A stretch of 64,000 bases of DNA from Haematococcus lacustris (lineage: Eukaryota > Chlorophyta > Chlorophyceae > Chlamydomonadales > Haematococcaceae). The DNA lies in NCBI GenBank assembly GCA_030144725.1, contig JASKMD010000029.1:6247538-6311537 (forward strand), given 5' to 3'. Below, piece after piece: positions 5,587-63,210 of the stretch. The position numbers and the translations under genes are program-made. The notes below the pieces were generated by a model that was not told where the DNA came from, did not search any database, and was given only the letters and a program-made list of their open reading frames with translations. The first letter of the stretch is position 1. Every line of letters begins with the position of its first letter.

Positions 5587-8500
5587 CTATGCGTCGCCCC
5601 CTGTTCGCTGCCGTTTATCCAGCCTGGCACCACCTGTAGCACCTCGAGGCCCAGCAGTCTGTGCGGCGCCCTGTCCTGCCTTTAGCCCTCGCCCTCCCAC
5701 ATTTCCCCTGCCTCGTCTACCAAAACCCCGCGCACCCCCCCTGCCGCCACGTTTCACAGTGCTGGTGCTTGCCTCAGCGCCGTGGCGCGGCTCTGTTGTG
5801 TTGTTTCGCCCCATGAAGCTGCTGATGGGGAGCATCCCCAGGGCAGCAGGTCCGTGGTCCATGGCAGAGCGAGGCAGTGGGTTCTGGAGGGCGGCCAGCA
5901 TAGCTGCCAGCTTCGGCCCCTGTGCATGCAGCCGCAAGCAGAAGAGCTGGCACCTGCATGGTCAGCTCAGACTTTAGTGCTCCAACACTCAAATGCTCGA
6001 AGTCATACCCAACTGCCTGACTAGCGTAGGCTTGCCTTGCCCCTGGCTGTTGTCTGCCTCACCTGGTCATTGGACACAGAGGGCAAGATTTCGCCGGGCT
6101 GCAGCCAGCTCACAAAGTCGTGTAGCTGTACAAGCATGTGGAGGCACAGCAGGCAAGTGGGACGAAGGCCAGTCAGTCACAGCGACGAGCCCTGCAAGGC
6201 CATAGGGTGACGTAGCCCTACCCCTGAGCAGTCCTCCTCCCTTCCTTTGTCCACACCCTCACCCTGTTGCTCCCCATCCCCTCGTCTCACCCCCTCTCTC
6301 CCATGCCTCCCCTTTCCTCAATAACTTTCGCACGGTCTTCTCTGGCCCCCTTACTTGGGTCCCCTTCTCACCTCCCTGAAGCTGCTGTGCTCAGAGTAGG
6401 GCACCTTGTGCAGAACCACGCTGCCCTTGGCCACCCTACGCCCCCCCGCCACTGGTCCTTGGCCTTTGGACCTTTCCATTGCCCAGCCAGTTGGCTGCAG
6501 CCAGGCAGACCAGGCACTGGACGCAGGAAAAAACTAGACAGACAAGCACCGCCAACAAAGCTTGCAGACCCGGAGGCGGTTGAGGAAGCTGGGTGTCAGG
6601 ATTTGAGCCGTTGTAGGCATCGTGTGGACCACACCACGTGATGGTGGATGTGATGGGTGCGCGCAGGAAGGGTAGGTGTGCAGCCACAGGTCCAGACTGG
6701 GTGGGCTGCACAGAAGGACATGATCTAGCCTGGCTGCAGCTGGCTGGCTGGCCCACGGGATGGCTGACGGCTGGCTGATCGAGCCTGGCTGAGGCCACGT
6801 CAGGCTGGTGTCAGAGTGGAGTGCCAGGTCCGCCTGCATCTTCCTAGGCCTGGGTCTCACCTGCACGCCCACCACAGTGCTGTAGCGGCCGTTGTAGCCT
6901 GCCATGATGGCGCCAAGCCCCTCCATGTTGACTTTGAAGAGTGGAACCTGGGACCATCTCAGGCCATGAAACATGGAACAAGGTGAGCTGTAGCAGGTGA
7001 AGTGGCAGGGGAAGCAGTGATGCAACAGGCAGCAAGGGTGGCTAGGAGCCAGGCGCCAGCATGACGTCAGATGACCTAACAGGAATGCGGCCAACCTCTG
7101 ACTTAGCTCACCGCATGCAAATTAGTTTCCATGTGGTTTGTTGTGAGCAGGCGCATGTAGTCCGGTGCCAGGTTGCAGCAGGAAAGGATCTGCATTGGTG
7201 CAAGTACATGGCAGACGCCTTGGATTGGGTCGGGGCAGGGGGAGGGGGAGGGGGCAGGGGGGAAGGAGACTACATCACACCCACCTGCATCTTTTCCTTG
7301 TTCACGTACACCTTCTTATTCAACGCACGAGCCACCTGTGCACGGAAGGCAATCACCTCCAGTGGCCACGAGCAACATCTCCTCGCGGTCAAGCCCTGAG
7401 TCTTAATGGCTGTCGAGGCATCTGAGAGAGGTGGTAGGCCCCTCCTCGCTTGGACCCTCTTTGCCATTGCCTTTTGCACGCGGCTGCCCTAGCTGGTCGC
7501 TTTGCTGACGTTATCAACTGGATGTAACAAGTAAACTGCCAGAGCCAGGTGCATGCGCCGGTGGCTGATGAAGAGGGTGTTGAGGGGGCCAGGTGCATGA
7601 AGGTGTTCAGACAGTGGGATGTGGGTGGGGCTACATGTTGTGTTCATGTTGTGTTCATGATTTGTTCATGGTGTGCCTAGAGTATCAGTCAAACGAAATT
7701 CATTCAACATGGAATAACATGTTTGACTCTGGGCAATATCACTCAGCTACTCCAATCAAGTTCAAGCATCCTCGGTCGCACCCTTGATGACTACAGACCC
7801 CATCCCGGTGGCATTTCCGCCCTAAACCACTGGGCACCACGTCAACACTAACAGCTTGATGCTTGAAAGGCCAACAGCCTGTCAAAACTACCTGGCCCTA
7901 TGGGTTGTTGCGGGCCCGACCAACAATGCCCCGCCAGTACTCTGCAGCCCGGTGCCCAGAGTATCAGTCCAGGGCCGTGAGTCCCAGTCTAGCCTAGCCA
8001 CACAGTCCAGGCCTTGCAGCCAGAGCATACCTCCAGGAACAGACGTTCTTTGCCGATGGTGTAGGTGCCAAACACAAACAGGCAGCGTGGGTTGAACGCC
8101 TCTGCCTTCACTGCCTCCAGTGTGTAGCGCAGTGTCTCCTCCTGACTGGGGAAGCAGTACTGCACATGCACAGGTCAAAGTTGGCATCAGTGGCCAGACC
8201 TACATGGCTGTGCTGTTGTGTGACATGTGTTCGTGACTGCAGCTGGAGGAGGAGATGGCAGAGGTGGCCATGGAGTGCCGCATGCGTGTCAAGCAGCTGA
8301 TACTCTTTTTTAGCGCAGCTGGCATCGGCACCCGGGATTGGTGGGGTGCAGGTGCGTTACTGCAAGCCTGCTGCAAGAGGGTGTCTCGCTCTCGCAACAG
8401 CAGCAACAGGTGAGGGCAACAGCAGCAATGTAACCCTGAAGCGCTGCCGGCCATCACCAAGCTGCCACTGCACCGTTGGATCCTGTACGCAGTCTACGTC

Positions 8501-11500
8501 AACCGGTGCCTTGAGGAGTGGCAGGACCCAAACCCCCAGCACCCCCACCCAAAGGCAAAGGCAAGGGCAGGGGCAAGGGCAAGGGTTAGTCTGCTGGGCT
8601 TAGCCCGATTGGGCAGCAGCCCCAGGAGACCCAGCAGACTCAGAGGAGCATGCAAACAGACCGGATTACAGCCCACAATAGTTGGGGAAACATGCGACTG
8701 CAAGAGGGTGTGCAGGCCCAGAGTCACAGACCAGTGGCGGGGCAGGGTGGTGCTAGTGGATGAGCACCGCATTAGCCGCGTCAGCTCAGCAGTGAATGGC
8801 CAGCAGCCTTGTGAGAGCCAGCTAAACAAACACGAGGCAACCAGGCCTGAAGACTGAAAGCCCCCAGCAGGGCAGGTGGACCATCGCCTGCTGCGCCCAG
8901 CCTGGAGCCAGCAGCATGACCAGCCAGTGCGGGCCTGGTGTGGTGCCCGGTAGTGGCCCCACACACCCTGCCACAGGCCCCACGTAGCAGCCAGGCAGCC
9001 ACACAGGCAGCAGCCTCAGAGCCAGGTCCCAGCACTCCCCAGCCAGCCAAGTGCAGCAAGCGCGCACCAAGGCTTACAAGGCAGCTGAGCCTACCCAGCC
9101 CACCAAGGCCACAGGCAAAGGCAAGGCCAAGAGACAGGCTGCCAAAGCCAAGCCAGCACCACAGCCAGGCAGGTGGGTAGACTGGGACTGCAATGCAGCG
9201 CTGAACATGCAGCGCATTGGGGAGGCCAAATGGCGCTCACTGGAGCTGTGATGGTGACCAGACCTGCTTGAGCTGCCAGCCAAGGGCAAGGAGTACCCGG
9301 GCCTAGGGTACAAGCGGCTGCGAGACCGCCCACCCAAGACCCAGCAGCAGCACCACCCTGTGGCACAGTAGTGTGCCCCCTCTTGAGCTGTCATCAGCTT
9401 ACAATTAGTGCATGTATGTCATGCCAACTCTAGACTATAGCTCTGTCACAGGGGTCAGGCAATAGTGCAGGTGGAAGGCGCCCGTGCCATGTGCATGGAA
9501 ACATAATTCCACGCAGACAAGACACCACCCCTTATGAGGGGACCTGAACCTGCCCAAACAGGCTGATGAGGCATATGTCATTGTTACAATGTTGAGGTGC
9601 TTGTCATTGTTACACCTGGGGGTCACAGTAGGTGGTGTCCAGCACCAAGCGGCAGCGACTGCCTCGCAGCGCCTGCAGCTCCGGCTGCTCAAACACGTGC
9701 GAGGACAGCCTGCAGGCCAGAGCCAGGGCCAAGGGGGCTGGCTGGAAGCTGCAATTTAGGCCAGGGCTCAGGCAACCAGCCATGCCCTAGCCGCCAGTGA
9801 TGGCAACAAGTCAGGAAAATGAAACCTGATGAAAAGGTGGCGTTCATGATCATGATGATGGCAGCACACACTGCAATGTCAGCTTGAGCCTGCCTGCCTG
9901 TCACCTCTTTCAGTAGTAGCTGAGTGAGCTAGCCCACAGTCAGACATGTTGTTCCTTGTTGAATAAGTTTTGTTTGCCTGTCACCTCCTTCGCTCATGTC
10001 AAGCTGCTTGTGTCCCCAACTGTGGCTCAGGCCCTGGGCGCTCCTCACCCCTGGCCCGTGCCTGACCTGCAGTCACCGGTGTGCAACACTGGCCTCATGC
10101 CGGGTGCCGTGGCTATGACCATTGCTGCTCCTGGGCAGTGGTTGGCGTCCACCAGGGTGAGGTTGACACCATCTGCCACCTCTACAGCCTGGTTCATAGG
10201 CAGCACCAGCAGGTTGGACATGGGCACCTGCAGGTCGCAGCGACAGGCCAGGGTTGTGGTGGGAGAGGCCCGGGACTGAAGCAGGGGCAGGGGGGCAGGA
10301 ACAGGGCAGAAGTGGGAACAGGGCCAGTGGGCAAAGGGGCAGGCAGCTGGCAGGTGTTTGTGTGTGCGGCTGCAGGGGAAGAGGCAGGTGCAGCGTGGGG
10401 CAAGGGCGGCAGCTCGGGGCAGGTAATGAAGCGAGGCAGGGCAGACGGACCCGCCCCTCCCAGTCTGCCCTGTTGCCCTGCGCCTCACCCTGAGCTTGGT
10501 GGACACCAGCTGTGCCGTGACGGCAGAGCACACCACCTTGCCCAGGCTGAAGGACTTGGTAAGGCCGCGGTAATGGTCAGCGTGGAAGTGCGTGAGGACC
10601 CAGTGCCTGTTGTGGCCACGCACCTGAAACAGGGGGCGGGCAGACGGGGAGGGCGTGTGTGTGTGAATACACAGACAAGCACCTAAGTTGGGTCATTTTG
10701 CCACGGGGGGAGACGTAGCTCGACACTGGCTTTGATTCCAGTGATGCAACTCATATTCCCATAAAGTCAATTGGCTCCCTACTTGCCGATGCTGTAACTG
10801 AGCCTGCAGGAGCAGGGCTGGGAGCCAAGGCGTGTGAGGTAAGAGCAGGGCAGTGCGGGCAGGAGCGAGGGCCTGGCCAGAGTTGGGCTGAAGGGTGAGA
10901 GCGGATGTTGCCAATGTAACTGTTGTCAATGTAACTGTTGCCAATGCGCTATGAAGGGCAAGATGCGCAATGGCGCGGATGAGCCCAAACAGCCCAATCC
11001 CAAGGTCCCCAAGCCAAAGCGCAAGGGACAGCCTGGCACAGTGGGCTGGATAGGCCCCGTCTTGCCACAAGGGAAGGCGCTTAAGGAGAGACTGGAGAAG
11101 CGGGCCAAGTCGAGGTGCTACCTGGAGGGCCTCAACAGGACTTCATCCGCAGCCGCATCCGCATCCGCAGCCGGGGTGGGTGGGGGGCCGAGGCCGTGCT
11201 GCAGGCCTGCCGCAAGGTGGTGGAGAGGCCCAACAGCGGCAAGCCAACCGACAGGGTGCCAGGCAGGGTGGTGACAGCGGATGAGTTCCGCACCAGCAGG
11301 GTCAGCTCAATCTTGAACAGCCCCCAGCTCTGTGAGGAGGAGCTGGACAGCAGCAAGCCCACCAGGCCTGAGGACTGGAAGCCCAAGCCGGGTCAGGTGC
11401 AGAACCGCTTGTTGCGGTCAGCCTGGAGCCAGCGGTTTGAGGCGCCAGTGCGGGGGCTCATGTGGTGCCCTTGGCTGGCCCAGGCCACCCCCGGGGACCT

Positions 11501-14500
11501 TGGCAAATGGGTGGACAGGGATTGCAACGCAGCCCTCAACCTCCAGCGGGCAGGGGAGAGCAAGTGGCGCCCACTGGAGCTGTGCAGGTGGCCAAACCGA
11601 GGAAGGCTTCCTGCCCAGGGCAAGGAATACCCAGCATTGGGCTTCAAGAAGCTGCAAGACCGAGCACCCAAGGCCCTAGCTCAGCAGCCTGTAGCCCAGT
11701 AGCATGTCCACTAGGCAATGCTTAAGCTGTTGCTCACATCAGAGCATGTGTTTCATGCCAACATAGATTTCCCGGCCTTCGGGTTGGGGTAGTGAATCAG
11801 GTATTGATGCCGGATGCTTGCTGCATGCAAACAGACCGGATTACAGATTACGCAGCCCCTGCCCATAATAGTAGGGGAAACATGCGGCTGACGAGAGAGG
11901 TGCAAATCTTACTATTCCATTCCATACCCAGGATGTAGCCTGACACGCTTCCTTATTATAGACATTGCAGCGTGGGTGCATTCATTTGGAGTGGGTGGGG
12001 TGGAGAGGAATGCAGTGGTGTGCATCCTAGCCGTGATCTCCCCCTGCAATGCCCATCCCCATGGCTCTGCTTGGCACTGGCAGCTGCTACCTGCAAGACA
12101 TGCCTAGCACATGCTCTGCCACACCTCTGTCTGGCCGCTCTGCAGCTAGAAGCCTGTCTGATCTGCACTGAACACCTGGTCAGGCCGATGCAAGCACGTC
12201 TGCCCTCTTGCACACCTCTTCAGCGTGGGCATCAGCTCAGAGTCCTACCATTCCTCTAGTGCTGCCCACTTTTGAGGAGCAGCCTGACGCGCCGTGGTGC
12301 GGGGTGAGGCTGTGCCTAGTGAGAGCCTATGCCAAGCCATGGAGGCAGAAAACCAGTTCTTGCTAGAGGTGGCACCAGCAAGGGGTGGCGTCTCATCCCT
12401 GCGCTCACGGGCCTTCACTGTGGCGCCCACAGCAGCCAGCAGTTCCGGCTTTGTCACCCCCTGCCCCTGCTCCTGTGCCCTCCTCACTAGGCTCACCAGC
12501 CACTGACCCTCAGTCGGCACCAGATCTGTGGGCTGGACCTGCTTGGCAAATGCTTGGCGAATGGCCAAGTCATGTTGCGTTACAATGGATAAGATGTAAC
12601 CCTATCAAAACCACCTTCACCAGCAGCGCGTGGGGCACGAGTGACGGGCGCGAGGAACGGGGCCTAGGGCGGAGGGATCGTGATTGTGTCTCTGGTGCAA
12701 TGTGACTGTGATGTTGGCATCAACTGATTGTTCGTCAAGGTCAGTAGGACACGGGTAGGGCTGAGTCATGAGCAGGTGGACAGTTGAGGGTGTGGATGAG
12801 GTTAAGCAGGCCCTTAAGTGCAGGAGTATGTACGTAAAGTGTATGATTAGGACAGCAGGTTGGTGAGGGGCTATTCGTGAAGTTGCACGCCATGTGCAAC
12901 CTTGCCAAGCGTGTGCCTAGCCACAGTAGTGGGCTACTTGAGCATGCGTGGCACCTAGGTTGGTATTTGATACAAGACATGTGAGTGTGATTTTAATGAG
13001 AAGCCCATGGCCTTTGCATGCCTTCGCCTCACCTTAAGGGCTTGCACGGCAGTAACTGCAAGCTGGCCATGACATGAAGGCAACAACCACACTGCATGTA
13101 TCGTCCATGCAATGGAGGGGGCGGATGCTTGGACCCACCTTCTGGCAGCCAGGCCCGAAGTAGTCGACAGGGAAGCGTGTGCCAGGCAGGCTGTGCCAGC
13201 GGGGCAGGCAGGACAGCTGACGGCCAGCTGCTGGGCACCCCAACCCACTCCCCACCCCATTGCCTACAACTCCAGAACCCCCAGCTGCTGACCCTTGCTT
13301 TGGCTGGCCTACCCACCCCACTCTGCCTGCCTCTTCAGTGCTTGGTGCTCTGGGCTGGGCTGCCATCAGGGTGGGACCAGCAGCAGCAGCAGGAGCTGCT
13401 GAGCCAACGCATGGCCTGCCTGGCTGTTCTTGAGGTGTTGGTGCTGAGGGTTTGACTAGTTGAGGGCCGATGCCAGGCGCTGGCTGCAGCAGTTCAATAG
13501 GTGAAGCTGCTGCGCCCATCAGGTAAATGGTGATGAGAGGCAGTCTCTTGGGAGCTGAGTTGAACATGGAGGAGAAGGGCTGGCATGCAGTCACGAGGTG
13601 GCTGGGGTGGGACAGTGCCGGGTGGCCACTGGCGGGGCCCCTGACAGCCCCAAGGGCTGCTGGGGCTGCAGGGCAGGCTGGAGCCCAGACTGAGCCTGCA
13701 GGAGCAGGGCTGGGAGCCAAGGCGTGTGAGGTAAGAGCAGGGGCAGTGCGGGCAGGAGCGAGGGCCTGGCCAGAGTTGGGCTGAAGGGTGAAAGCGGGGT
13801 CGCAGCTGCTGTTCGTCCTTGGCCATAGAGATACGGTGGATGCCCAGTTATGGCTGTTGCTTGCATGGGACACAGGGTGCATGAGGGCAGCAGCGGCGGC
13901 TGGCTTCAAGGCAACCTGATGCCACTGCTGCAGGGGATGTTGGGCCTCAGGCTGAGGCTGGGATTGAGGCTGGGGAAGCTTGTCATACTTGGTTGCTGTG
14001 GGGTGCTGGCATGGCTGCTCCAGCGTCCTCTGCCGCTCCACTACCTTGTGCGCTGCAGCCAGACAGTGGCTGCGCAGCTCTGGGTCAGGCAGGGGGCCGC
14101 ACAGCATTGCTAGGGACCCCTGCAGCTGCTGCCGCTCAGACTCGCTCTCCACACCCATACCCTGAGATGAGGGCAGCAGCAGTAAGAGTGCTACCAGCAG
14201 CAGCAGCGGCACAAGCAGCCAGACTTGAAGCAGCCTCACAACCTGATGGGGCGGAGTTTTGTTTGACTGGAAGGGCGGAGCAATTGTAAGAGTATTAAGC
14301 AAGAGACATGCACGACTGTTGCCTGCAGCATGCAGTTAAGTAGCAGGAAGGACGTGTGGAGAGCCCAGCTGTAGCTTGGAGCCGTCCTCATGGCCTGATT
14401 GGCTTGAGCTGCCAAGGGCAAGTAGCCAAGGGCAAGTAGCTGGGCCACAAGCTGGGCCACAAGCGTCTGTGAGGCCGCTTACCCCAAGGCCCCGCAGCAA

Positions 14501-17500
14501 CAGCAGTTGTAGCACCCTGCCGCGCAGTAATGCATGCTAGTGGCTCCTCTTGCAGCTAACAGCAGTGCGTGTCAGCCATGTCAGTTCTAATTCCATACAG
14601 ACAAGACACCAACCCTAGCGACAGCCCCGTCGTTCTGTCTTTGTGTCGGTATTAGTTGTACTCTGGGCTGATGAGGGAGGTGTGTCTGTGTGAACAGCCA
14701 TAGGGAGGATGGAAAGGGGCTGGTCTGTGCATGGATCAGGAGGCAGCGCGGCCTGATCGCAGCCCAGCTCAAGTTGACGTTGTTGTGGCAGAGGTCAACA
14801 AGCGCATGACCATGGGCAGCAAGCAGTGTGTCCTGGCAGCAGTCCTGTGCCTGTTTGTGCTGCTGCAGTCCTTCCTAGGCAAGCCACCTCCAGGGTTCCC
14901 AGCAGCAGGTCCAGCCCCAGGCCCCCATCCCCCACCTGACCCAGCCTGCCCTCCCTATGCCCACCCCCGCCTTGCCACACGCAGCTCACCCCGCGATGCA
15001 GCCGCCCCAGCCCAGCTGCCTCCCCCAGTGCAGCTGAACATCTGGGACCCACAGCTGTTGGCACAGATCAAGGATGCCATGGAGCTGCTCACCAAAGCTA
15101 GTGTGCTGGAACATCTGATGCGTGGCCCCCACCACCGTGGCATCAGGCTGCTGCCCGGTGAGGTGGCAGTGTTTGAGCAGCCCAGCAGCGCCTGGCTTGT
15201 GGCCATGCTCAAGGAGCTAAACGAGGTGCACCTGCTAGGGGACCTCAACTCCCTCAACGCAAACGCAACGAAGATCATCACCAACATCCAGGAGTACTAC
15301 CGGCACCCGGGGCGCTTCATCAGTTGGTGGTGCAAGGCGGTTGGGGTGGTGCAGAGGGGGTTCAGTCGGGCAATGAGAAAGCACTTTCCCCAGATGGTAC
15401 TAGGACGCCTAGACTGCAGCCTGCCTGACAGGGAGGACAAGTGGCGCTTGCTGCGGCAGCCTAGGTGGGTGGCAGAAATGGCAAAGCATCGTAGGCTGTT
15501 GAGGCTGCCGGCCCAGTGGCGGGAGGGAATGGACTCCATAGGGAAGGGGGGGGCAGGCAGGCTGCCCCTAGAGAAGAGGGTGCGTCATGCGCTGTTCGTC
15601 AACCGCAACTCAGAGGGCTGGCAGACACCCCATGGCACGTGCCCGCGCCCCTTCACCATGCTCCCCATGGTGGGGGTGCAGGCCCGCCACTTTGTCATTG
15701 ATGACAGGGTACTGCATGGGCTGCTGACCGACCTCGGCATCACCGACCTGACACGGTTGCAGTTTGCCAGTTTGCCGCTGAAAGCCTGCCCCATTGGCAG
15801 AAGTTCATCCAGTACAGCCAGCTGCAGAACAGCGGTTGGGACTTTGCGCGCAGGGTAGAGACGGATGGTGTCAGTATCAGTGCTGTTGGGGTGGACCCAG
15901 GTGTCGCCCAGGCCATCAAGGCAGGGCATGCACAGCGGCACCCAGTCACGGGTCTGGTGCTCAGGTAGTGGGAGTGGAAGTTGAGCAAGGGGCAGCTGAA
16001 GCATGACAGCGGGCTTACCAAAGCCAAGCAGGACACAGCCCGCTGGTCAACTGCCATCCAGCCACAGCTGCTGCAACTGGCAGCTGCCACCCCAGCTGGC
16101 ACCACCCTGGGAGGCCTCCAGGCCCACATCCTGGCCCTCAAGGCCACCTGGGACGCACAGTGGGAGGAGTACCTCAAGCCCCGCTGGCGCAAGCAGCGGT
16201 TGGCGCTGCACCATGCCCAGGATCGCGTCATTGAGCATTTCTGCAAGAAGGTATGACCTGACCTGACCTTGAACCCTGACCCTGCAGGTGGTGAATGGGA
16301 TGAAGTGGGTCACGCCACCACTACCACCAGGAGAGGGGAGTGGCTGTGTTCCTGGGAGCGAGCAACTTCAGCCAGGGTGGGTGGAAGGCGGGGGCGGTGT
16401 GGGAGGGGTGTCGCAGGGTGGTGCAGCAGCCCAGCAGGCCCAGCACAGATCCCAGGCCTGACAGGCTGGTGATCGTGGATGAGTTCCGCACCAGCCGTGT
16501 CAGCTCGTCAGTGCATGCCCGCCAGCCTTGTGAGCTGCACCTGCCACCTGACCAGCCTAGGCCTGCAAACTGGGTACCCCCAGCAGGCCAGGTCAACCCG
16601 CGGCTGGTGCGCCCAGCCTGGAGCCTGCGGCATGCTAAGTATGTGCGGGGCCTGTCATGGTGCCATCAGGTGCCGCCCAACCCCCCCCCAGCCCAGGCCC
16701 CCCCCGCCCAGGCCCCATCACCTCCCCCAGCGCAGGCCCAGACCCTCCCTGCAGCACCTGGCCCAGTGCAACGACCCCAGGCCCCCCCAGGGGGCAGGTG
16801 GCTGGACCGGGACACCAACGGGTGCCTGAACATGCAGCGCATTGGGGAGAGCATGCAGCGCCCCATAGAGTTGTGTCAATGGAAGGACCTGGAGGCTCTG
16901 CCTCCCAATGGCGAGGAGTACCAGCAGCGCTACAAGCTGGTCAATGACCCACGGTCAGGCAGCGGCTGCACCGGGCTGCAGAGTACCAGCGAGGCATTGA
17001 TGGCCGGGCCCGCAACAATGCATAGGGCCTGGTAGTTTGCACAGGCTGTTAGCTTTACAGAGCATAAAGCTGTTAGTTTTGATGAGGTGCCCAGTGGTCC
17101 CCAGTTGGCTCGGTTGGAACGTGCCACCGGTGTGGGGTCTGTAGTCATCAAGGGTGCGACCGAGGATGCTACAACTTGCTTACCCACAGTCAGACATGCT
17201 GTTCCTTGTCGAATGAGTTTTGTTTGACTGTGCATAGATCACAGACTAGGCTTGATGGGCAGTACCAGCACCATGCAGGACCCTCTCACCACCAGGTCCT
17301 GCTCAGTAAGCCAGGGCAGGGTCAGCTCATCCATCCCTTCGCGCATGAAGAGGGGTAGCAGGTGAGCCAGTCCCAGGCCTGACAACCTGCAACAAGCCAG
17401 GTCAGGCCACACTATCTTAGGTCAGATGAGACCAGAGTGCGTCAGGTCAAGACACAGTAAACTACGCTGCAACTGCTGGCCCTTGACCCAGATGCCTCAC

Positions 17501-18982: not shown

Positions 18983-20932
18983 ACTGGCAGCTGCGGATTA
19001 CTCCGCATCTACTGGCAATCGGCGCTTTAATCCTTGCATCAGAGTCCATGCCGGCGCAAGCGAGCGCGGACACACCTCAGCTGCTCACAACCGGTTGTTC
19101 TAGTGGTATGTAGCGGCATCAGTGATGGAGCTGCGCCTGCTATCGAGCCAGAAGTACAATCTAAATTCAGCCCGCCAGGCTTGCTCCGCGAGCCTTTCAT
19201 TGATGCAGGCGGTGTCGGAAGACCGTCGTGGGGCTAGTAATGACCGGACATTGCATCAAACGCGCAGGGTTATGTGGGAGGTGCGTTCCTCTCTCTAGCC
19301 AGTCACACAGAAAAGTACCTCCTTGCACAAATCGGCATGTTGTAAGCTGACCACTGCGACTTTTTTAAATTTCGAGTCATTACTCTGTTCGTAGCTCTAC
19401 GACACAGCTGCTGGAAAAGAAAGCACGGCAATTCATCAATCAGGCCCGCCGTAATTGACTTTGGCGTGACCCGACTCTGCCTTGCAGAGTTGACTTGCCT
19501 ACCCTTGCAGCCCCACCACCTCCCAGCACCCGCAGAAGCCTCCCAGCCCCCCCCACCCCCTCCCAGCCCTCTCACTGCCCCGCCACCCCCTCCCACCCCC
19601 TCCCACCCCTTCCCACCCCTTCCCAGCCCCTCCCACCCCCCACCCACCCCCTCCCACCTCCTCTCAGCCCCTCCCACCCCCTCCTGAGCCCCTTACTGCC
19701 CCGCCAACCCTTCCCACCCCCTCCCAGCCCCTCCCACCTCCCAGCCCCTCCCACCCCTGCATGGCGATGAGCTGGAGGCAGCAACAGGTGCCGGTGTTGG
19801 TGCCGCCCCTGACCTTCTACCCCCTCGTGCTGCACCCCCCTGGCAGGAGCAGGCAGCTGGTGCTGGTGCCGCCCCTGACATGCCCCCCCCTCCTGCTGCA
19901 CCCCCCTGGCAGCAGCAGGCAGCTGGTGCTGGTGCTGCCCCTGACCTGCCCCCCCCTCCTGCTGCACCCCCCTGGCAGCAGCAGGCAGCTGGTGCTGGTG
20001 CTGCCCCTGGGCTGCCCACCCCTCCAGCTGAGCAGCAGGGGGTCAGGGCGGAGCTGGACGCAAGCTCGACACGCAAGCGGAGGGCGGGCGGGAGGGATCG
20101 GACCCAACATGTCGAGCAAGGTAACGTAGCAATGGCCTACACACCTTGAGTGGCCTTACCGAGTGGCCAGGTAGTAGGTACTACCCACGAAGCGGTCAAG
20201 CAATGCAGCAGCCTTGTATACTCCCGAGCATGGGTGGAGGGGCGTCGTTACATCGGTTTGGCGTGCCATGTGAATTGTTTTGACTGCGGCGACTGTCCCT
20301 GACTGTTTGCAGAGGCTACTGGGCCACGTCGGTCGCGGCGAGGCCCGCATGAGCAGAACTGGCATGAATTTGAAAGTCAAGATTTGAGCCGTCATAGCAC
20401 TCAGCACAGTGCACAATAGTTAATGTTACAAGCTGCACCGCATAGCTGACAGAGTCCTCTATCCAGGGATGTGCGAAACATAAATAGAAACCACGTGGCT
20501 GAGACGCGGCGTCGTTTTGATTACCAGGGGTCGGATTCCTATCATTTCCTGTCATTTTTTGTTAGTTGGGGTCGCCTGACTGCGACACGGCAATGCACCC
20601 AGCGACACGATGCAGGCTAAAGTGGCCAGTGCGGTGCAGTCCCAGGGTAGCAAAACGGGTATGTTAAAGATTTGTTAAAGCTGTTGTTAAACCCAAAACA
20701 TCAGGATGTTAAATTAATCGGTCGTGCTCTACTGGTGATTGCTGGTCTACTGTTACCCTGCCATCCCTGCTCAGCTTCTACTCATCCTATAAGATGGAAC
20801 ACCTATCGAACCTATCGAATTTGTGACGTCGATAACAATCAAGAGGACATCTCATCTCACGCATCGATGGAATGGATATCACGGACCACATACCGTAATG
20901 ATACGCCATACCGTAATGATACGCCTTGTTGG
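18983..20932. repeat. Long direct repeat, copy 2 (identical to 1-1950)
   Basis: Same content as copy 1, including the pyrimidine tract and the 66-bp minisatellite (19811-20011). Here the sequence continues past the point where copy 1 meets the gap, into AT-rich DNA. Confidence 0.9.
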
Positions 20933-36659: not shown

Positions 36660-38095
36660 CAACCCAGTGCAAACACGCTCAGCTTTCTCAGGTTTGCTGC
36701 CAGGGTACGTAGCTCAGTGTCAGGCCTGATGGTGCTGCATGAGTTGGGGCAGCTGCCCCTCCAACTTTACTGGCTTAGGGCTGCATGCAAGTTCTGGAAC
36801 ACTGCCAAACTATCCCACAGTGACCTGCTAATGAGGGTCATCAAGGCAGATGTGGAGTTAGGCAGGGGTTGCCAGGCCAGCTGGAGTGCTCAGTTCCAGC
36901 TTGCCGCCAGAGAGCTGATGGGGGTGAGTTCACCTTGAGCCCGGACATGGTCCTAGGCACCAAGGCTATGGAAGTGAAGTGGCTCGAGAGGTGGGGGAGG
37001 CGTTGGGTTGGGTTTGAGGGAGACCCTAGATTGCCTCACACACGCAAATTAGTGCACAACTATCGATTTTGAGGGGGTGTTTTTTGTACACGGTTCGCCT
37101 CGGAATGAGACTAATGGCCCATGCCCACCAACATCGTGAAAAATCTCTTAGTAATCAGCGAAACTCGTGAATTATATAACTAATATTTAGTTACCCTTTT
37201 TTAAAGCTACTCCTTCTAGTGCAGTACTGCACCATATCTAATGCCGCAACAATGCATAAAACCTCATCGTGAAAAACTGCACCATATACAGTCTAGTAGT
37301 TTTGTGATGTAATAAAGTAGTTATGTTGGTAAATCATTGGTATTTTACTGGTTTGGAGATTGTTGTTCCTTTAAATCACATTGGTTCTCATGGTGTAGTA
37401 CTGCACCTGTCACTAGTGCACTACTACAATGCACCCAATTGTGCTACACTGCACCACACAGTGGTACAACACATCACCTTAGCGATATCTCACCAACCAT
37501 GCATATTTATGAATTTTCGTTCAAACCCCAATCTTACAACCACGTCATATGGCTATGTGCAAAATCTCAAGCCGCGATTCTGAAAAATGCTGTTACTAAT
37601 TTGCTTGAGTGCTGAGACGGTGCATCGGGAGAGATGTTCGTATGCTGCATGGTTCAAGCATGGGGACGGCATTGGCATCAATCACATGGCACCACACCTG
37701 CTTAACAGACAGCTATCTACAGAAGTTCGCACGAGCTTGACTAGGTTCAGGTTAGGCAACAGCGGTCTGGGGGTGGAGAAGGCTCGGTGTGAGGGGGTAA
37801 CTTTCATTGATCGCACATGCACCAGATGCACAGAGGGGGTAGTGGATGACGCCATGCATTTCATCTTTGAGTGCACTGCCACGAGTTCCATCAGGGAGCA
37901 GCCGGAGTTTGCCATGACTTTACAGAACAATAATGAGAATTTGCATGACTTCATGTTGAGCCCATGTGCACCTTTGTTTGTGCACCTTGCTTTGAAGTGC
38001 GTTACAGAAAGTCCCGAACCCCTAGAGGGGGAGGGCGGCCTAGCAGCCTAACGGCTGACGGCTTAAGCGGTGTAAGCCACATCATCATCACCATT
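36660..38095 (+). mobile_element. 5'-truncated LINE 3' end
   Basis: From CCAGTGCAAACACG it matches 62350-63195 closely. It carries the C-terminal part of the LINE ORF, including the CTRCTEGVVDDAMHFIFEC (CX2CX9HX4C) finger, and ends in a short (ATC)n tail. It lies between the convergent DHODH and DDX41 genes. The frame breaks near 36920, and an AT-rich insertion splits it at 37031. Possible short target duplication: TTTCATT on both sides, too short to trust. Confidence 0.85.
37031..37610. mobile_element. AT-rich MITE-like insertion in the LINE copy
   Basis: The intact LINE at 62710 reads AGACCCTAGA directly followed by CTGAGACGGTGC. Here about 580 bp of AT-rich DNA separate these. GCAAATTAGT (37044-37053) and its reverse complement (37595-37604) lie near the two ends and act as candidate inverted repeats. 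No coding capacity and no clear target duplication seen. Confidence 0.6.
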
Positions 38096-48899: not shown

Positions 48900-49318
48900 C
48901 CTCTGGGTGCAGGGTGTGATGTGGCATCATGTGCTGACACATCCATCCTGGGTGCGCTTGCTGCGCTTGGCCGGCGGGGCAGTGCTGGGCCCAGGCTCTG
49001 AGGCTGCTGCTGGTGTGGCCTCGTGGCTGCTGCGTGGGGCCTGTGGGGGCTTGCGGGGGGCCACTACCGGGCACCACATCAGGCCCCTCATTGGCTGGTC
49101 ACGCTGCTGGCTCCAGGCTGGGCGCAACAGGCGGTGGTGCACCTGCCCTGCTGGTGGCTTCCAGCCTGCACGCCTGGCGGGTCCAGCTCCTCCTCACATG
49201 GCTGCTTGCCATTCACTGCTGAGCTGACCCGGGTGGTGCGGTGCTCATCCACCATACAGTCGGCTAGGGACACAAACCCTTACTTTCTTTGGCGCTGCCC
49301 TTCCGCTTCTTCTTAACC
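48900..49318 (-). pseudogene. Fanzor-like fragment F7 (family B), RuvC-II region
   Basis: Minus strand: MVKKKRKGSAKESKG (nuclear-localisation-like basic run), a stop, then CMVDEHRTTRVSSAVNG, PCEEELD, a frameshift, LLRPAWSQQRDQPMRGLMWC and the Pro/Ala/Lys linker, ending before the RuvC-III region. It matches F3 closely. The LINE at 49333-63195 is inserted exactly at the start of this fragment, so the missing upstream part may lie right of 63211. Confidence 0.7.
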
Positions 49319-49332
49319 ATAACGCGATGTGC
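49318..49332. repeat. 15-bp target-site duplication of the 13.9-kb LINE insertion
   Basis: CATAACGCGATGTGC at 49318-49332 recurs exactly at 63196-63210. The left copy precedes the truncated LINE 5' end; the right copy directly follows its (ATC)n tail. Confidence 0.9.
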
Positions 49333-50975
49333 CTAGGATCGGCTCAGCCAAGTCTAACACAGCGGGCAGGGAGCTGGTTGACGTGCTATCAGCTACAGGC
49401 CTTGTTGCCACCACCGGCAGGGGACATGGGGACATGGGACAGCGCACCTGCAGAGCTAGCACTCGCACGGAGCACATCGTCATGAGTGAGTCAGTGTACT
49501 CTTTGAGCCACTCATCTTCCTTCCCTGACGCTTGCCACGAGTTTGACCACTCCCCCATTACCCTGTCATTCAAGGCACCGGCACAAGCCACTACACCCAT
49601 CCACACCTGCAATGCTGACTGCCACACTGGCCCACAGTTCCAATGGAAGCCAGATCATGTTGCTCGGTATGTGGGTGCCCTTCTTGCTTTGGAAGAGGAG
49701 GTCATGGCTGTCAAGCAGGCTGTTGAGCAAGGCACACACCCTGACTCCATCAACCGCTTTGTGCATGACATCATATCACGGGCTGCGGGCAGTGCGGGGA
49801 TGCTCAAGCCAAGGCTCTGCCCACTGGCACGTGTAGACAAGCACACCACATTCACGCCTGCCTGGTTTGACCGGTCATGCAAGGAGGCTAAAGCCGCACT
49901 CTGGCAGGCTCTGCGTAGCGGGGAGGCCTTGCATCTTTATAGGGCTAGAAAGCAGGCCTATAGGAGGCTGGTTGCTAGAGCTAAGTCTGCGTGGTCCAGG
50001 CACAGAGCTGCCAAGCTCCTAGACATGCTTAAACACAACCCTGGGGATGCCCTCAAGATGCTCCAAGTCAAGCACGCACGCCAGCAGTCCATGGTTCCCA
50101 TTGACAAGTGGCATCAGCATCTGCAGGCCTACTTCACAACCACCATTGCGGCACATGCAGCACCTTGAGCCAGCCTGGACCAGGCAAGGCTCATTTGCAA
50201 GCCGTCCCTCTTGGGAGAGGCAGACCTCACTCTGTCCCTGCCCCTGCCCCTGTCACAACAGATCCACCTGCCTATGAGCTGCCCCATCTTGACAACATCA
50301 CATCCATTGTACAAGCACAACTACGTGAGCTCAACAATGACACAGCACCTGGCCTGGATGGGCTCCCAGCCCCCTTCATCAAGCACGCCCGCACAGTTGA
50401 GGAGGGTGTTACCACATACTTGTTGCTCCCTCTGCTTACCACATGGTTTCACAGCCCCCAGCGGCTTGGAAGGTAGCTAGAATCAGCCCCCTCTTCAAGG
50501 ACACAGACCCCACAGACCCCAACAAGTACAGAATGCTTGCTGTGAGTAGTGTGTTGTACCGCCTGTATGCTAACGTCTTGCGGCACGTGCTGACTGCCTG
50601 GTGCATGACACACAAAGTGTTGCCAGCTGAGCAGTTTGGGTTCATCCCGGGACGCAGCACCATGCAACCCATGTTCATTCTCCGCCATCTTGTCCACGCT
50701 CAAAAGGCCAACATAGATGCCAAGCACCGCAAGCTTTTCACTGCCTTCATTGACTTCAAACAGGCCTATGACCACATACCTCGACAACAATTGTGGGAGC
50801 ACTTGCGGGTTGGGGTCAAGCTGCCACAGCCCTTGCTTGCCTGCCTGGAGGGTCTGTATAGGGATGATAGCTATGTGCTGATAGATGGCCCCCACCGCAC
50901 CCCCCCAGTGACTCCGGACCAACGTGTCAAGCAAGGCTGCCCCATCAGCCCACTCCTGTTTGCTCTCTATGTTCA
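49333..50975 (+). pseudogene. LINE endonuclease C-terminus and reverse transcriptase N-half
   Basis: Frame 1 has NTAGRELVDVLSATGLVATT and FDHSPITLSF, the last motifs of an APE-type endonuclease, then a linker ending at TGA 50166-50168. A second frame continues the RT (TAPGLDGLPAPFIKHA). A third has AWKVARISPLFKD, NKYRMLAVSSVLYRLYANVL, FIDFKQAYDHI (first catalytic Asp region) and QGCPISPLLFALYV, where the satellite begins. Two frameshifts (near 50160 and 50450) and the truncation make it non-functional. Confidence 0.85.
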
Positions 50976-53900
50976 CCTGACCTGACCTGACCTGACCTGA
51001 CCTGACCTGACCTGACCTGACCTGACCTGACCTGACCTGACCTGACCTGACCTGACCTGACCTGACCTGACCTGACCTGACCTGACCTGACCTGACCTGA
51101 CCTGACCTGACCTGACCTGACCTGACCTGACCTGACCTGACCTGACCTGACCTGACCTGACCTGACCTGACCTGACCTGACCTGACCTGACCTGACCTGA
51201 CCTGACCTGACCTGACCTGACCTGACCTGACCTGACCTGACCTGACCTGACCTGACCTGACCTGACCTGACCTGACCTGACCTGACCTGACCTGACCTGA
51301 CCTGACCTGACCTGACCTGACCTGACCTGACCTGACCTGACCTGACCTGACCTGACCTGACCTGACCTGACCTGACCTGACCTGACCTGACCTGACCTGA
51401 CCTGACCTGACCTGACCTGACCTGACCTGACCTGACCTGACCTGACCTGACCTGACCTGACCTGACCTGACCTGACCTGACCTGACCTGACCTGACCTGA
51501 CCTGACCTGACCTGACCTGACCTGACCTGACCTGACCTGACCTGACCTGACCTGACCTGACCTGACCTGACCTGACCTGACCTGACCTGACCTGACCTGA
51601 CCTGACCTGACCTGACCTGACCTGACCTGACCTGACCTGACCTGACCTGACCTGACCTGACCTGACCTGACCTGACCTGACCTGACCTGACCTGACCTGA
51701 CCTGACCTGACCTGACCTGACCTGACCTGACCTGACCTGACCTGACCTGACCTGACCTGACCTGACCTGACCTGACCTGACCTGACCTGACCTGACCTGA
51801 CCTGACCTGACCTGACCTGACCTGACCTGACCTGACCTGACCTGACCTGACCTGACCTGACCTGACCTGACCTGACCTGACCTGACCTGACCTGACCTGA
51901 CCTGACCTGACCTGACCTGACCTGACCTGACCTGACCTGACCTGACCTGACCTGACCTGACCTGACCTGACCTGACCTGACCTGACCTGACCTGACCTGA
52001 CCTGACCTGACCTGACCTGACCTGACCTGACCTGACCTGACCTGACCTGACCTGACCTGACCTGACCTGACCTGACCTGACCTGACCTGACCTGACCTGA
52101 CCTGACCTGACCTGACCTGACCTGACCTGACCTGACCTGACCTGACCTGACCTGACCTGACCTGACCTGACCTGACCTGACCTGACCTGACCTGACCTGA
52201 CCTGACCTGACCTGACCTGACCTGACCTGACCTGACCTGACCTGACCTGACCTGACCTGACCTGACCTGACCTGACCTGACCTGACCTGACCTGACCTGA
52301 CCTGACCTGACCTGACCTGACCTGACCTGACCTGACCTGACCTGACCTGACCTGACCTGACCTGACCTGACCTGACCTGACCTGACCTGACCTGACCTGA
52401 CCTGACCTGACCTGACCTGACCTGACCTGACCTGACCTGACCTGACCTGACCTGACCTGACCTGACCTGACCTGACCTGACCTGACCTGACCTGACCTGA
52501 CCTGACCTGACCTGACCTGACCTGACCTGACCTGACCTGACCTGACCTGACCTGACCTGACCTGACCTGACCTGACCTGACCTGACCTGACCTGACCTGA
52601 CCTGACCTGACCTGACCTGACCTGACCTGACCTGACCTGACCTGACCTGACCTGACCTGACCTGACCTGACCTGACCTGACCTGACCTGACCTGACCTGA
52701 CCTGACCTGACCTGACCTGACCTGACCTGACCTGACCTGACCTGACCTGACCTGACCTGACCTGACCTGACCTGACCTGACCTGACCTGACCTGACCTGA
52801 CCTGACCTGACCTGACCTGACCTGACCTGACCTGACCTGACCTGACCTGACCTGACCTGACCTGACCTGACCTGACCTGACCTGACCTGACCTGACCTGA
52901 CCTGACCTGACCTGACCTGACCTGACCTGACCTGACCTGACCTGACCTGACCTGACCTGACCTGACCTGACCTGACCTGACCTGACCTGACCTGACCTGA
53001 CCTGACCTGACCTGACCTGACCTGACCTGACCTGACCTGACCTGACCTGACCTGACCTGACCTGACCTGACCTGACCTGACCTGACCTGACCTGACCTGA
53101 CCTGACCTGACCTGACCTGACCTGACCTGACCTGACCTGACCTGACCTGACCTGACCTGACCTGACCTGACCTGACCTGACCTGACCTGACCTGACCTGA
53201 CCTGACCTGACCTGACCTGACCTGACCTGACCTGACCTGACCTGACCTGACCTGACCTGACCTGACCTGACCTGACCTGACCTGACCTGACCTGACCTGA
53301 CCTGACCTGACCTGACCTGACCTGACCTGACCTGACCTGACCTGACCTGACCTGACCTGACCTGACCTGACCTGACCTGACCTGACCTGACCTGACCTGA
53401 CCTGACCTGACCTGACCTGACCTGACCTGACCTGACCTGACCTGACCTGACCTGACCTGACCTGACCTGACCTGACCTGACCTGACCTGACCTGACCTGA
53501 CCTGACCTGACCTGACCTGACCTGACCTGACCTGACCTGACCTGACCTGACCTGACCTGACCTGACCTGACCTGACCTGACCTGACCTGACCTGACCTGA
53601 CCTGACCTGACCTGACCTGACCTGACCTGACCTGACCTGACCTGACCTGACCTGACCTGACCTGACCTGACCTGACCTGACCTGACCTGACCTGACCTGA
53701 CCTGACCTGACCTGACCTGACCTGACCTGACCTGACCTGACCTGACCTGACCTGACCTGACCTGACCTGACCTGACCTGACCTGACCTGACCTGACCTGA
53801 CCTGACCTGACCTGACCTGACCTGACCTGACCTGACCTGACCTGACCTGACCTGACCTGACCTGACCTGACCTGACCTGACCTGACCTGACCTGACCTGA

Positions 53901-55973
53901 CCTGACCTGACCTGACCTGACCTGACCTGACCTGACCTGACCTGACCTGACCTGACCTGACCTGACCTGACCTGACCTGACCTGACCTGACCTGACCTGA
54001 CCTGACCTGACCTGACCTGACCTGACCTGACCTGACCTGACCTGACCTGACCTGACCTGACCTGACCTGACCTGACCTGACCTGACCTGACCTGACCTGA
54101 CCTGACCTGACCTGACCTGACCTGACCTGACCTGACCTGACCTGACCTGACCTGACCTGACCTGACCTGACCTGACCTGACCTGACCTGACCTGACCTGA
54201 CCTGACCTGACCTGACCTGACCTGACCTGACCTGACCTGACCTGACCTGACCTGACCTGACCTGACCTGACCTGACCTGACCTGACCTGACCTGACCTGA
54301 CCTGACCTGACCTGACCTGACCTGACCTGACCTGACCTGACCTGACCTGACCTGACCTGACCTGACCTGACCTGACCTGACCTGACCTGACCTGACCTGA
54401 CCTGACCTGACCTGACCTGACCTGACCTGACCTGACCTGACCTGACCTGACCTGACCTGACCTGACCTGACCTGACCTGACCTGACCTGACCTGACCTGA
54501 CCTGACCTGACCTGACCTGACCTGACCTGACCTGACCTGACCTGACCTGACCTGACCTGACCTGACCTGACCTGACCTGACCTGACCTGACCTGACCTGA
54601 CCTGACCTGACCTGACCTGACCTGACCTGACCTGACCTGACCTGACCTGACCTGACCTGACCTGACCTGACCTGACCTGACCTGACCTGACCTGACCTGA
54701 CCTGACCTGACCTGACCTGACCTGACCTGACCTGACCTGACCTGACCTGACCTGACCTGACCTGACCTGACCTGACCTGACCTGACCTGACCTGACCTGA
54801 CCTGACCTGACCTGACCTGACCTGACCTGACCTGACCTGACCTGACCTGACCTGACCTGACCTGACCTGACCTGACCTGACCTGACCTGACCTGACCTGA
54901 CCTGACCTGACCTGACCTGACCTGACCTGACCTGACCTGACCTGACCTGACCTGACCTGACCTGACCTGACCTGACCTGACCTGACCTGACCTGACCTGA
55001 CCTGACCTGACCTGACCTGACCTGACCTGACCTGACCTGACCTGACCTGACCTGACCTGACCTGACCTGACCTGACCTGACCTGACCTGACCTGACCTGA
55101 CCTGACCTGACCTGACCTGACCTGACCTGACCTGACCTGACCTGACCTGACCTGACCTGACCTGACCTGACCTGACCTGACCTGACCTGACCTGACCTGA
55201 CCTGACCTGACCTGACCTGACCTGACCTGACCTGACCTGACCTGACCTGACCTGACCTGACCTGACCTGACCTGACCTGACCTGACCTGACCTGACCTGA
55301 CCTGACCTGACCTGACCTGACCTGACCTGACCTGACCTGACCTGACCTGACCTGACCTGACCTGACCTGACCTGACCTGACCTGACCTGACCTGACCTGA
55401 CCTGACCTGACCTGACCTGACCTGACCTGACCTGACCTGACCTGACCTGACCTGACCTGACCTGACCTGACCTGACCTGACCTGACCTGACCTGACCTGA
55501 CCTGACCTGACCTGACCTGACCTGACCTGACCTGACCTGACCTGACCTGACCTGACCTGACCTGACCTGACCTGACCTGACCTGACCTGACCTGACCTGA
55601 CCTGACCTGACCTGACCTGACCTGACCTGACCTGACCTGACCTGACCTGACCTGACCTGACCTGACCTGACCTGACCTGACCTGACCTGACCTGACCTGA
55701 CCTGACCTGACCTGACCTGACCTGACCTGACCTGACCTGACCTGACCTGACCTGACCTGACCTGACCTGACCTGACCTGACCTGACCTGACCTGACCTGA
55801 CCTGACCTGACCTGACCTGACCTGACCTGACCTGACCTGACCTGACCTGACCTGACCTGACCTGACCTGACCTGACCTGACCTGACCTGACCTGACCTGA
55901 CCTGACCTGACCTGACCTGACCTGACCTGACCTGACCTGACCTGACCTGACCTGACCTGACCTGACCTGACCT
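50976..55973 (+). repeat. (CCTGA)n pentanucleotide satellite, left part
   Basis: About 1,000 tandem CCTGA units with no variant that I could find. It begins directly after the LINE RT codons for LLFALYV and runs to the gap. The minus strand (TCAGG)n has no stop in any frame, which creates artificial open frames of 3,000+ codons reading VRSGQ. Confidence 0.99.
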
Positions 55974-56473
55974 NNNNNNNNNNNNNNNNNNNNNNNNNNN
56001 NNNNNNNNNNNNNNNNNNNNNNNNNNNNNNNNNNNNNNNNNNNNNNNNNNNNNNNNNNNNNNNNNNNNNNNNNNNNNNNNNNNNNNNNNNNNNNNNNNNN
56101 NNNNNNNNNNNNNNNNNNNNNNNNNNNNNNNNNNNNNNNNNNNNNNNNNNNNNNNNNNNNNNNNNNNNNNNNNNNNNNNNNNNNNNNNNNNNNNNNNNNN
56201 NNNNNNNNNNNNNNNNNNNNNNNNNNNNNNNNNNNNNNNNNNNNNNNNNNNNNNNNNNNNNNNNNNNNNNNNNNNNNNNNNNNNNNNNNNNNNNNNNNNN
56301 NNNNNNNNNNNNNNNNNNNNNNNNNNNNNNNNNNNNNNNNNNNNNNNNNNNNNNNNNNNNNNNNNNNNNNNNNNNNNNNNNNNNNNNNNNNNNNNNNNNN
56401 NNNNNNNNNNNNNNNNNNNNNNNNNNNNNNNNNNNNNNNNNNNNNNNNNNNNNNNNNNNNNNNNNNNNNNNNN
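55974..56473. other. Assembly gap (500 N) inside the satellite
   Basis: Placeholder gap. The true array length, and anything else hidden in it, is unknown. Confidence 0.99.
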
Positions 56474-60902: not shown

Positions 60903-60905
60903 CAG

Positions 60906-61847: not shown

Positions 61848-62053
61848 GGCCCTAGTAGTTTCACACAGGCTGTTAGCCTTTCAAGCATTAAGCTGTTAGT
61901 TTTGATGAGGAGCCCAGTGGTCTATCCCGGGAAAGTGCCATCTTCGTGGGGTTTGCAGTCATCAAGGGTGCGACCGAGGATGCTACAAATTGATTGTAGT
62001 AGCTGAGTGAGATTACCCACAGTCCAACATGTTATTCCTTGTTGAATAAGTTT

Positions 62054-63164: not shown

Positions 63165-63210
63165 CTGACGGCTTAAGCGGTGTAAGGCACATCATCATAA
63201 CGCGATGTGC

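Follow-up and report, generated by a model that had tools for sequence, protein, structure and literature searches.

The DNA we examined is a 64,000-nt window from Haematococcus lacustris (GCA_030144725.1, contig JASKMD010000029.1, 6,247,538-6,311,537, forward strand), and all coordinates below refer to this whole stretch. The window holds copies of one Fanzor family: three insertions, designated F2, F4 and F6, and a fourth copy whose 3′ end lies at ~62058. The three insertions, with the intron and the element end that matter below, are as follows:

7691-7957, minus strand: F2 insert, between exact 12-bp repeats AGAGTATCAGTC at 7679-7690 and 7958-7969
9908-9975, plus strand: F4 insert, between exact 12-bp repeats GCCTGTCACCTC at 9896-9907 and 9976-9987
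14739-17227, plus strand: F6 insert, between repeats CTGTGCAT[G/A]GATCA at 14725-14738 and 17228-17241 (13/14 match)
16251-16287, plus strand: intron 2, 37 nt, GT..AG, CCTGA-rich
17183-17227, plus strand: Fanzor 3′ end, with CCCACAGT (3′ asymmetric inverted repeat), a weak hairpin and GAATGAGTTTTGTTTGA

F2 is a 5′-truncated insert of 267 bp, corresponding to approximately the last 267 bp of the family in minus orientation, and the same insertion recurs at L002 (identical) and at L003-L005. The F4 insert is a 68-bp Fanzor 3′ end, while F6 is a 5′-truncated insert of 2489 bp with interrupted open frames, whose left boundary was placed at 14739 by alignment to other copies. The first-pass annotation had described these copies as carrying footprints of retrotransposition, and the footprints themselves are real, with a common 3′ end, differing internal start points and flanking repeats of 12–14 bp in all three. 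The shared 3′ terminus is near-fixed, holding only to within a few bases, and the flanking repeats are exact over 12 bp in F2 and F4 but not in F6. Duplication scores were 15–18 for the F2 group, 12 for F4 and 11 for F6; F6 has the weakest duplication, both because of its score and because another copy, L061, has the same 5′ flank, CTGTGCATGGATCA included, and a different 3′ flank. L061 looks recombinant. F2 and F6 are also duplicated together with their surroundings, 18,982 bp apart.

The Fanzor-carrying element is very abundant in H. lacustris. Across the 308-Mb genome, a 20-mer from the tail, allowing at most one mismatch, occurs 2130 times, compared with 0 for the reversed control, while a 5′ marker of the family is found, in near-exact form, only 376 times. 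Full-length copies are ~3 kb and contain a spliced Fanzor gene, and internally deleted copies that keep both ends also occur. A check for the Fanzor1/TnpB motif series (D, [TS][TS], a C4 zinc finger and RD) found GVD-[PL]-G, DEFRTSRVSS and WLDRD, with a zinc finger showing two clear cysteines only. Among 25 relatives, PF07282 gave a match in 10, with a best E of 0.001. A Pfam search of the window proteins gave no match, a search for Fanzor identity via solved structures in the PDB gave no Fanzor match, and an NCBIfam search gave nothing useful. This multicopy element is apparently a non-autonomous Fanzor1-type transposon, the H. lacustris counterpart of CRe-1/2/3 in Chlamydomonas, a green alga of the same order as Haematococcus. 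The Fanzor1 elements CRe-1/2/3 of Chlamydomonas reinhardtii are reported to show the same pattern, which was assigned to one-ended Helitron2 transposition (Bao & Jurka 2013, PMC3627910). The pattern has thus been on record since 2013 and is no novelty.

Target duplications were counted in 43 copies whose 3′ end was usable, which became 36 distinct by 3′ flank once near-identical flanks were merged; of 20 joined copies, 10 had been removed beforehand because they showed no clear tail. Scores of at least 13 were reached by 9 of the 36 copies versus 8 of 210 control placements, and scores of at least 11 by 12/36 versus 14/210, where the copy counts are lower bounds wherever 5′ flanks fall outside the fetched stretches and shared repeats push the control counts up. 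In eight of the nine best duplications (all except that of F2), ~57–677 bp of other sequence separates the 5′ repeat from the matched element, and six of these eight reach the family's 5′ end; insertions that reach this end and carry duplications are L019, L038, L039, L041, L045 and L052 (n=6). Five copies close to the 5′ end (L009, L022, L026, L043 and L060) show no duplication in the sequence read, with best scores of 6–9, and old age could also explain the loss. The 5′ filler at L045 was copied from flanking sequence ~0.9 kb away, that at L052 repeats the copy's own 5′ region in inverted orientation, and that at L020 is a 54-bp palindrome. The idea that the filler is a structured RNA was dropped, as an Rfam search of 10 loci returned 9 chance-like matches, all below gathering scores. 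The insertion target is NCTG, and 23 of 36 insertions have CTG at their 3′ junction, compared with 255/1440 in the background.

At the 3′ terminus, TG or GG comes after GTTTTGTT in most cases, and NCTG often comes next. Helitron2 elements are defined by asymmetric inverted repeats, the 5′ one at the end and the 3′ one upstream of the 3′ hairpin. In the Fanzor element, ACTGTGGG (5′) and CCCACAGT (3′) occupy these defining places, with exact CCCACAGT within the last 60 bp in 26/36 copies and a 3′ repeat spacing of 36 bp versus the 20–30 described for Helitron2. TGTGGGG was found near the 5′ end in only 9 of 20 copies examined, and 5′ starts are ragged; ten of 30 copies (L031-L034, L036, L037, L046, L049, L053 and L055) were excluded from the 5′ alignment and the 5′ count. 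Folding of three 5′ ends gave the 5′ hairpin expected of Helitron2, at −2.7 to −10.7 kcal/mol and with GTGGGG or TGGGG paired to CCTCAC, CCCCA or CCCCAC, and folding of two 3′ ends gave a weak hairpin (−4.9 and −0.3 kcal/mol). Rep-helicase Helitrons are present in the genome, with 18 matches to the PF14214 profile among 23 scored candidates. The long loci L071 and L072 were considered as an autonomous partner and rejected, as neither matches the Fanzor ends, though L072 consists of N on its 5′ side; no autonomous element with Fanzor ends was found among these two and L063-L070, the latter covered with 1.5-kb flanks only, so that their ends mostly lie outside. One of these loci, the short Rep fragment L070, has an oppositely oriented, truncated Fanzor copy ~20 bp away.

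Copies lacking introns had been named beforehand as the proof of an RNA intermediate. Intron 2 is present in every copy with both exon edges recognised, and the annotated protein P0007 spans it (FCKK/VVNGMKW). Intron 1 was kept in 24 of 24 entries and intron 2 in 13 of 13 (a few places were counted twice), and genome-wide, allowing up to 3 mismatches, the unspliced exon–intron junction of intron 2 occurs at 34 places and the spliced junction at 0, so that no intron-less copy was found by either approach. Since the introns are retained, the outcome speaks against an RNA intermediate that had been spliced. Of the marks of a LINE-mobilised retrocopy, the family shows 5′ truncation with variable duplications but not intron removal. 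A linked reverse transcriptase (RT) frame, also anticipated, is absent from the ordinary copies read.

The fourth copy in the window has a different context, as it is nested within a LINE:

49318-63210, plus strand: 5′-truncated LINE whose RT gene harbours a 3′ piece of Fanzor, bounded by an exact 15-bp target duplication CATAACGCGATGTGC at 49318-49332 and 63196-63210
50443-50985, plus strand: palm part of the LINE RT (RVT_1, E 1.9e-17), running into the (ACCTG)n array
50975-60901, plus strand: (ACCTG)n array of ~10 kb with N runs, adjoining Fanzor intron 2 at its 3′ splice site
60906-62058, plus strand: Fanzor exon 3 to 3′ end
62061-63195, plus strand: remaining LINE RT ORF (EFKYLG...) and LINE 3′ end with a (CAT)n tail

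The array would represent an expanded Fanzor intron 2. The RT beside the 60.9–62.06 kb copy, considered as a driver of the Fanzor, belongs to the host LINE and so is no reading frame of the Fanzor itself. The exact LINE–Fanzor junction was found at 8 places on 8 contigs, two of which were read, the window and L008, and each has the LINE 3′ end and its own target duplication, of 15 bp in the window and of 13 bp and different sequence at L008. The LINE family is young, with four further copies 98.0–98.8% identical to the window copy over 345 bp. Spread of the composite by segmental duplication without retrotransposition is unlikely: although just two of the eight places have been read, these differ in their LINE-end duplications, 5′ start points and flanks, and the remaining junctions lie on separate contigs. 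The Fanzor piece inside the LINE thus probably travelled as LINE RNA. The notion of Fanzor as a LINE passenger survives in this narrow form, while in the ordinary copies examined the introns are kept and no RT was seen. A search of open-licence literature listings showed no earlier report of a LINE carrying a Fanzor fragment, and such a composite would be a route for a retrotransposon to carry a fragment of an RNA-guided nuclease.

For the ordinary copies we favour DNA-level, one-ended copying of a Helitron2-like kind, to which we assign a probability of about one half, because introns are kept, the inverted repeats and 5′ hairpin are Helitron2-like, internal deletions and extra 5′ sequence occur as in CRe-1/2/3, some copies close to the 5′ end show no duplication, 5′ fillers such as those at L045, L052 and L020 are present, and the genome contains Rep-helicase Helitrons. 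The anatomy of the copies, their duplications, the kept introns and the two composite insertions with differing LINE duplications are observed; that DNA is the intermediate, that a rolling-circle enzyme acts, which way copying runs, how the end is repaired and that RNA carried the composite are parts that we infer. Helitron2-like rolling-circle machinery, acting in trans, would initiate at the Fanzor 3′ end beside an NCTG target and copy DNA toward the 5′ end of the element. Copying would often stop early, giving 5′ truncation, or overrun the 5′ end, giving foreign 5′ sequence, and repair joining the unfinished end would create the 11–18 bp duplications, sometimes with local or fold-back filler. 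Separately, a truncated Fanzor copy would have landed in the LINE RT gene, and the composite would have spread by LINE retrotransposition. Several observations sit poorly with Helitron2-like copying, namely the ends of L071 and L072, which are unlike those of the Fanzor, the polarity opposite to that of the one Helitron tested in cells, the NCTG rather than TTTT target, the duplications in copies that reach the 5′ end, the presence of TGTGGGG in only 9 of 20 copies, the ragged 5′ starts and the weak 3′ hairpin.

The retrotransposition reading keeps its ragged 5′ ends, near-fixed 3′ end and long variable duplications, though with introns kept it is not established. In its surviving version, which we regard as possible but less likely than DNA-level copying, a LINE enzyme would copy unspliced, intron-containing Fanzor RNA in a SINE-like manner by target-primed reverse transcription, priming at CAG/N opposite CUG near the RNA 3′ end. 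The near-fixed 3′ end, the excess of tails over 5′ markers, the target duplications, the CTG enrichment at the 3′ junction, the presence of a young LINE family and the fold-back or inverted pieces with which certain 5′ ends are furnished all suit it, as does a constant 3′ end, which is the polarity opposite to that of the Helitron tested in cells. Set against this are the intron counts and the LINE 3′ end, whose (CAT)n is unrelated to the Fanzor tail GTTTTGTTTG in the one LINE family read. A wider version, in which the Fanzor families of volvocalean algae multiply from unspliced RNA by target-primed reverse transcription and one lineage became a LINE passenger between RT palm and thumb, is doubtful; if true, CRe-1/2/3 would be misassigned to Helitrons, and the unspliced RNA would possibly also be the guide scaffold, whose region would be the over-represented 3′ end. 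With around two thousand marked 3′ ends in this genome, one-ended DNA copying and RNA copying predict differently. Spread mainly through copying as a passive by-product of segmental duplication and of repair by recombination (microhomology-mediated capture), with little active transposition, could account for the duplicated surroundings of F2 and F6, for the 7 of 43 copies that collapse onto others by flank and for the seemingly recombinant L061, but it is very improbable, since 36 distinct 3′ flanks, one 3′ end, the NCTG preference and the duplications require a specific integration step.

Non-LTR retrotransposons (LINEs) and SINEs show 5′ truncation, a fixed 3′ end, long variable duplications and 5′ rearrangements. 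The Fanzor copies resemble them in all of these, with a near-fixed 3′ end, and differ in that the copies read lack an RT, retain introns and have a tail unlike that of the one LINE family read. CRe-1/2/3 share with the H. lacustris element a multi-exon Fanzor gene, an intact 3′ end, 5′ truncation, internal deletions, asymmetric inverted repeats and a 5′ hairpin, and their 7–19 bp duplications are likewise accompanied in some copies by foreign sequence after the 5′ duplication (PMC3627910). CRe ends match autonomous Helitrons, whereas no matching autonomous element was found here; CRe elements insert after TTTT rather than at NCTG; and complete CRe copies lack duplications, which several 5′-reaching copies here possess, although the five copies close to the 5′ end without one resemble the complete CRe copies, age again being possible (PMC3627910). 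Helraiser, a Helitron1 tested in cells, is a rolling-circle element with a 3′ hairpin, which in the Fanzor ends is weak, and in it, too, truncation and read-through create new ends. Its 5′ end is essential, truncation or read-through alters its 3′ end and no target duplication is made, whereas in the Fanzor element it is the 3′ end that stays constant (PMC4778049).

The first-pass annotation had described three insertions of one Fanzor family with flanking direct repeats, and these were confirmed on the sequence at the positions claimed. They are listed here with the parts of a LINE in which a piece of the same family is nested.

7691-7957, minus strand: Fanzor insertion F2
9908-9975, plus strand: Fanzor insertion F4
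14739-17227, plus strand: Fanzor insertion F6
49318-63210, plus strand: composite, a LINE with an exact 15-bp duplication, whose RT gene contains a 3′ piece of Fanzor
50443-50985, plus strand: RT palm part of the composite LINE, preceding the (ACCTG)n array
50975-60901: (ACCTG)n array of ∼10 kb, interrupted by N runs; it looks like intron 2 of Fanzor in expanded form

Full-length copies start ∼440 bp upstream of the F6 start, near TGTGGGGACAACACCATG. The gene begins with MPPKRKRKR and holds a first intron of 65–138 nt and, further downstream, intron 2 of 37–625 nt, mostly CCTGA repeats; both splices are spanned by the annotated protein P0007, which is annotation and not RNA evidence. The protein has TnpB-like motifs, with weak matches to the TnpB zinc-binding family in 10 of 25 relatives (best E 0.001). 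Other copies show smaller intron 2 expansions (L044, L062), and five are internally deleted, their 5′ part fused straight to the 3′ part (L009, L013, L016, L019, L022). Across the 308-Mb assembly, a 20-mer from the 3′ end was matched at 2130 places at up to one mismatch (reversed control 0) and a 22-mer ∼55 bp from the 5′ end at 376 (control 0), so 3′ ends are several-fold commoner than 5′ ends, a rough ratio given that the two patterns are unlike in length and conservation. A segmental duplication with an offset of 18,982 bp takes in F2 and F6 (530-1943 and 19512-20925; other pairs, on C166, the contig of the window, at G000:C166:6236246 and 6255228, and at 6243293 and 6262275). A second, diverged Fanzor family, with a different conserved stretch (GGATTACAG...GGGGAAACATGC), has its own pieces at 8200-9400, 10900-11890 and 63580-64000.

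Target duplications were scored in the 43 copies whose 3′ end was usable (36 once copies sharing a flank are collapsed), by comparing the 3′ flank of each copy with all of the upstream sequence covered. Scores of at least 13 were reached by 9/36 insertions versus 8/210 controls, and of at least 11 by 12/36 versus 14/210, while the remaining 24 scored 10 or less, the same as controls. F4 (12) and F6 (11) fall under the stricter line, yet look convincing from their position. The duplication abuts the element directly in F2, F4 and F6; in the nine best duplications, all but that of F2 have additional sequence, ∼57 bp long at the least and 677 bp at the most, separating the 5′ repeat from the matched element, whose 5′ end is reached in six (L019, L038/L050, L039, L041, L045/L059, L052) and truncated in L011 and L018. 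Five copies extending close to the 5′ end (L009, L022, L026, L043, L060) had no duplication in the sequence covered (best scores 6–9). Since the copy L061 has at least 139 bp of the F6 5′ flank in common, repeat included, and a different 3′ flank, the F6 duplication is not to be counted as clean; recombination between copies would be the simplest reading.

At the 3′ junction, the bases after GTTTTGTT are mostly TG or GG, in many cases with NCTG next; CTG falls within a fixed 8-nt window for 23 of the 36 insertions, versus 255 of 1440 random positions. Two separate groups of loci have upstream sequence in common that ends in CTCGGCCAC or nearly so (L038, L040, L047, L050, L054, L093; and L035, L042, L051, L052), and the 5′ end of the element is therefore not fixed. 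Among the fillers, the first ∼86 bp in L045 match a stretch 0.9 kb downstream at the same locus (94%), the first 57 bp in L052 repeat the 5′ region of the element itself in inverted orientation (93%), and the filler of L020, with a duplication score of just 10, contains a 54-bp palindrome. L045 and L059 have the same flanks and duplication and differ in the 35–50 bp immediately before TGTGGGG.

In the composite, the array is followed by Fanzor exon 3 to the tail and then by the RT thumb. Given the N runs in the array, the join across it might stem from the assembly; no N occurs at the 3′ junction. On its minus strand the array gives a spurious 3494-aa ORF. A second composite on another contig, L008, has the same inner 3′ junction and 92.5–94.9% identity over both parts, with a different start and a different duplication (13 bp, TTAATGCTTTGTA); its palm (RVT_1 positions 147–193, under the curated cut-off) runs in frame into Fanzor. 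A 24-mer across the junction, at up to three mismatches, gave 24 matches: eight exact, on eight contigs, three with one mismatch, three with two and ten with three. GGCCCTG is read in ten of the two- and three-mismatch matches, which may be other insertions. Among open-licence papers on Fanzor with retrotransposons, LINEs included, Haematococcus, Chlamydomonas and Helitron2, neither titles nor abstracts described a Fanzor inside a LINE; the literature consulted also included PMC10711439, PMC10432273, PMC12633428 and PMC6338049. The same LINE recurs at 36660-38085 with a (CAT)n tail, its 3′ 345 bp 98.6% identical to the 63-kb copy; a target duplication was looked for there and not found. Given the common inner junction, the different starts and duplications in the two composites examined of the eight exact junctions (window and L008), and the exact junction on eight contigs, the Fanzor piece was likely carried by the LINE, as a multiplied accident. 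The suggestion that Fanzor travels as a LINE passenger thus probably holds for this nested 3′ piece and not for the main family's way of moving.

For the main family, an RNA intermediate had been proposed. Reverse transcription of mRNA is expected to leave copies without introns, and none was found: intron 1 is kept in 24/24 locus entries and intron 2 in 13/13 with both exon edges recognised (some entries are one place or insertion counted twice), and genome-wide the spliced intron 2 junction had 0 matches versus 34 for the exon–intron junction at an equal mismatch limit. These data argue strongly against copying via spliced RNA. Retrotransposition from unspliced Fanzor RNA would keep the introns as well, though we regard such a template as somewhat less likely than DNA. 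A DNA intermediate is favored by Helitron2-type inverted repeats, a 5′ hairpin and a close match to the Chlamydomonas Fanzor1 elements CRe-1/2/3, while the missing autonomous partner, the ragged 5′ ends and the opposite polarity speak against a Helitron. No partner with Fanzor ends was seen in two long and eight short Helitron loci, the short ones covered with 1.5-kb flanks and at few of their ends. The long loci, L071 and L072, are low-copy Helitrons whose Rep is of a diverged type and whose helicase is Pif1-like, with ∼160-bp repeated units in their 3′ parts; the 5′ side of L072 reads as N. At L070 (605-1605), a short Rep fragment and a truncated Fanzor copy lie in opposite orientations, ∼20 bp apart.

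The Haematococcus element closely resembles CRe-1/2/3, which were assigned to one-ended Helitron2 transposition (PMC3627910), and its polarity is opposite to that of the Helitron Helraiser, in which the 5′ end is essential and the 3′ end varies (PMC4778049).
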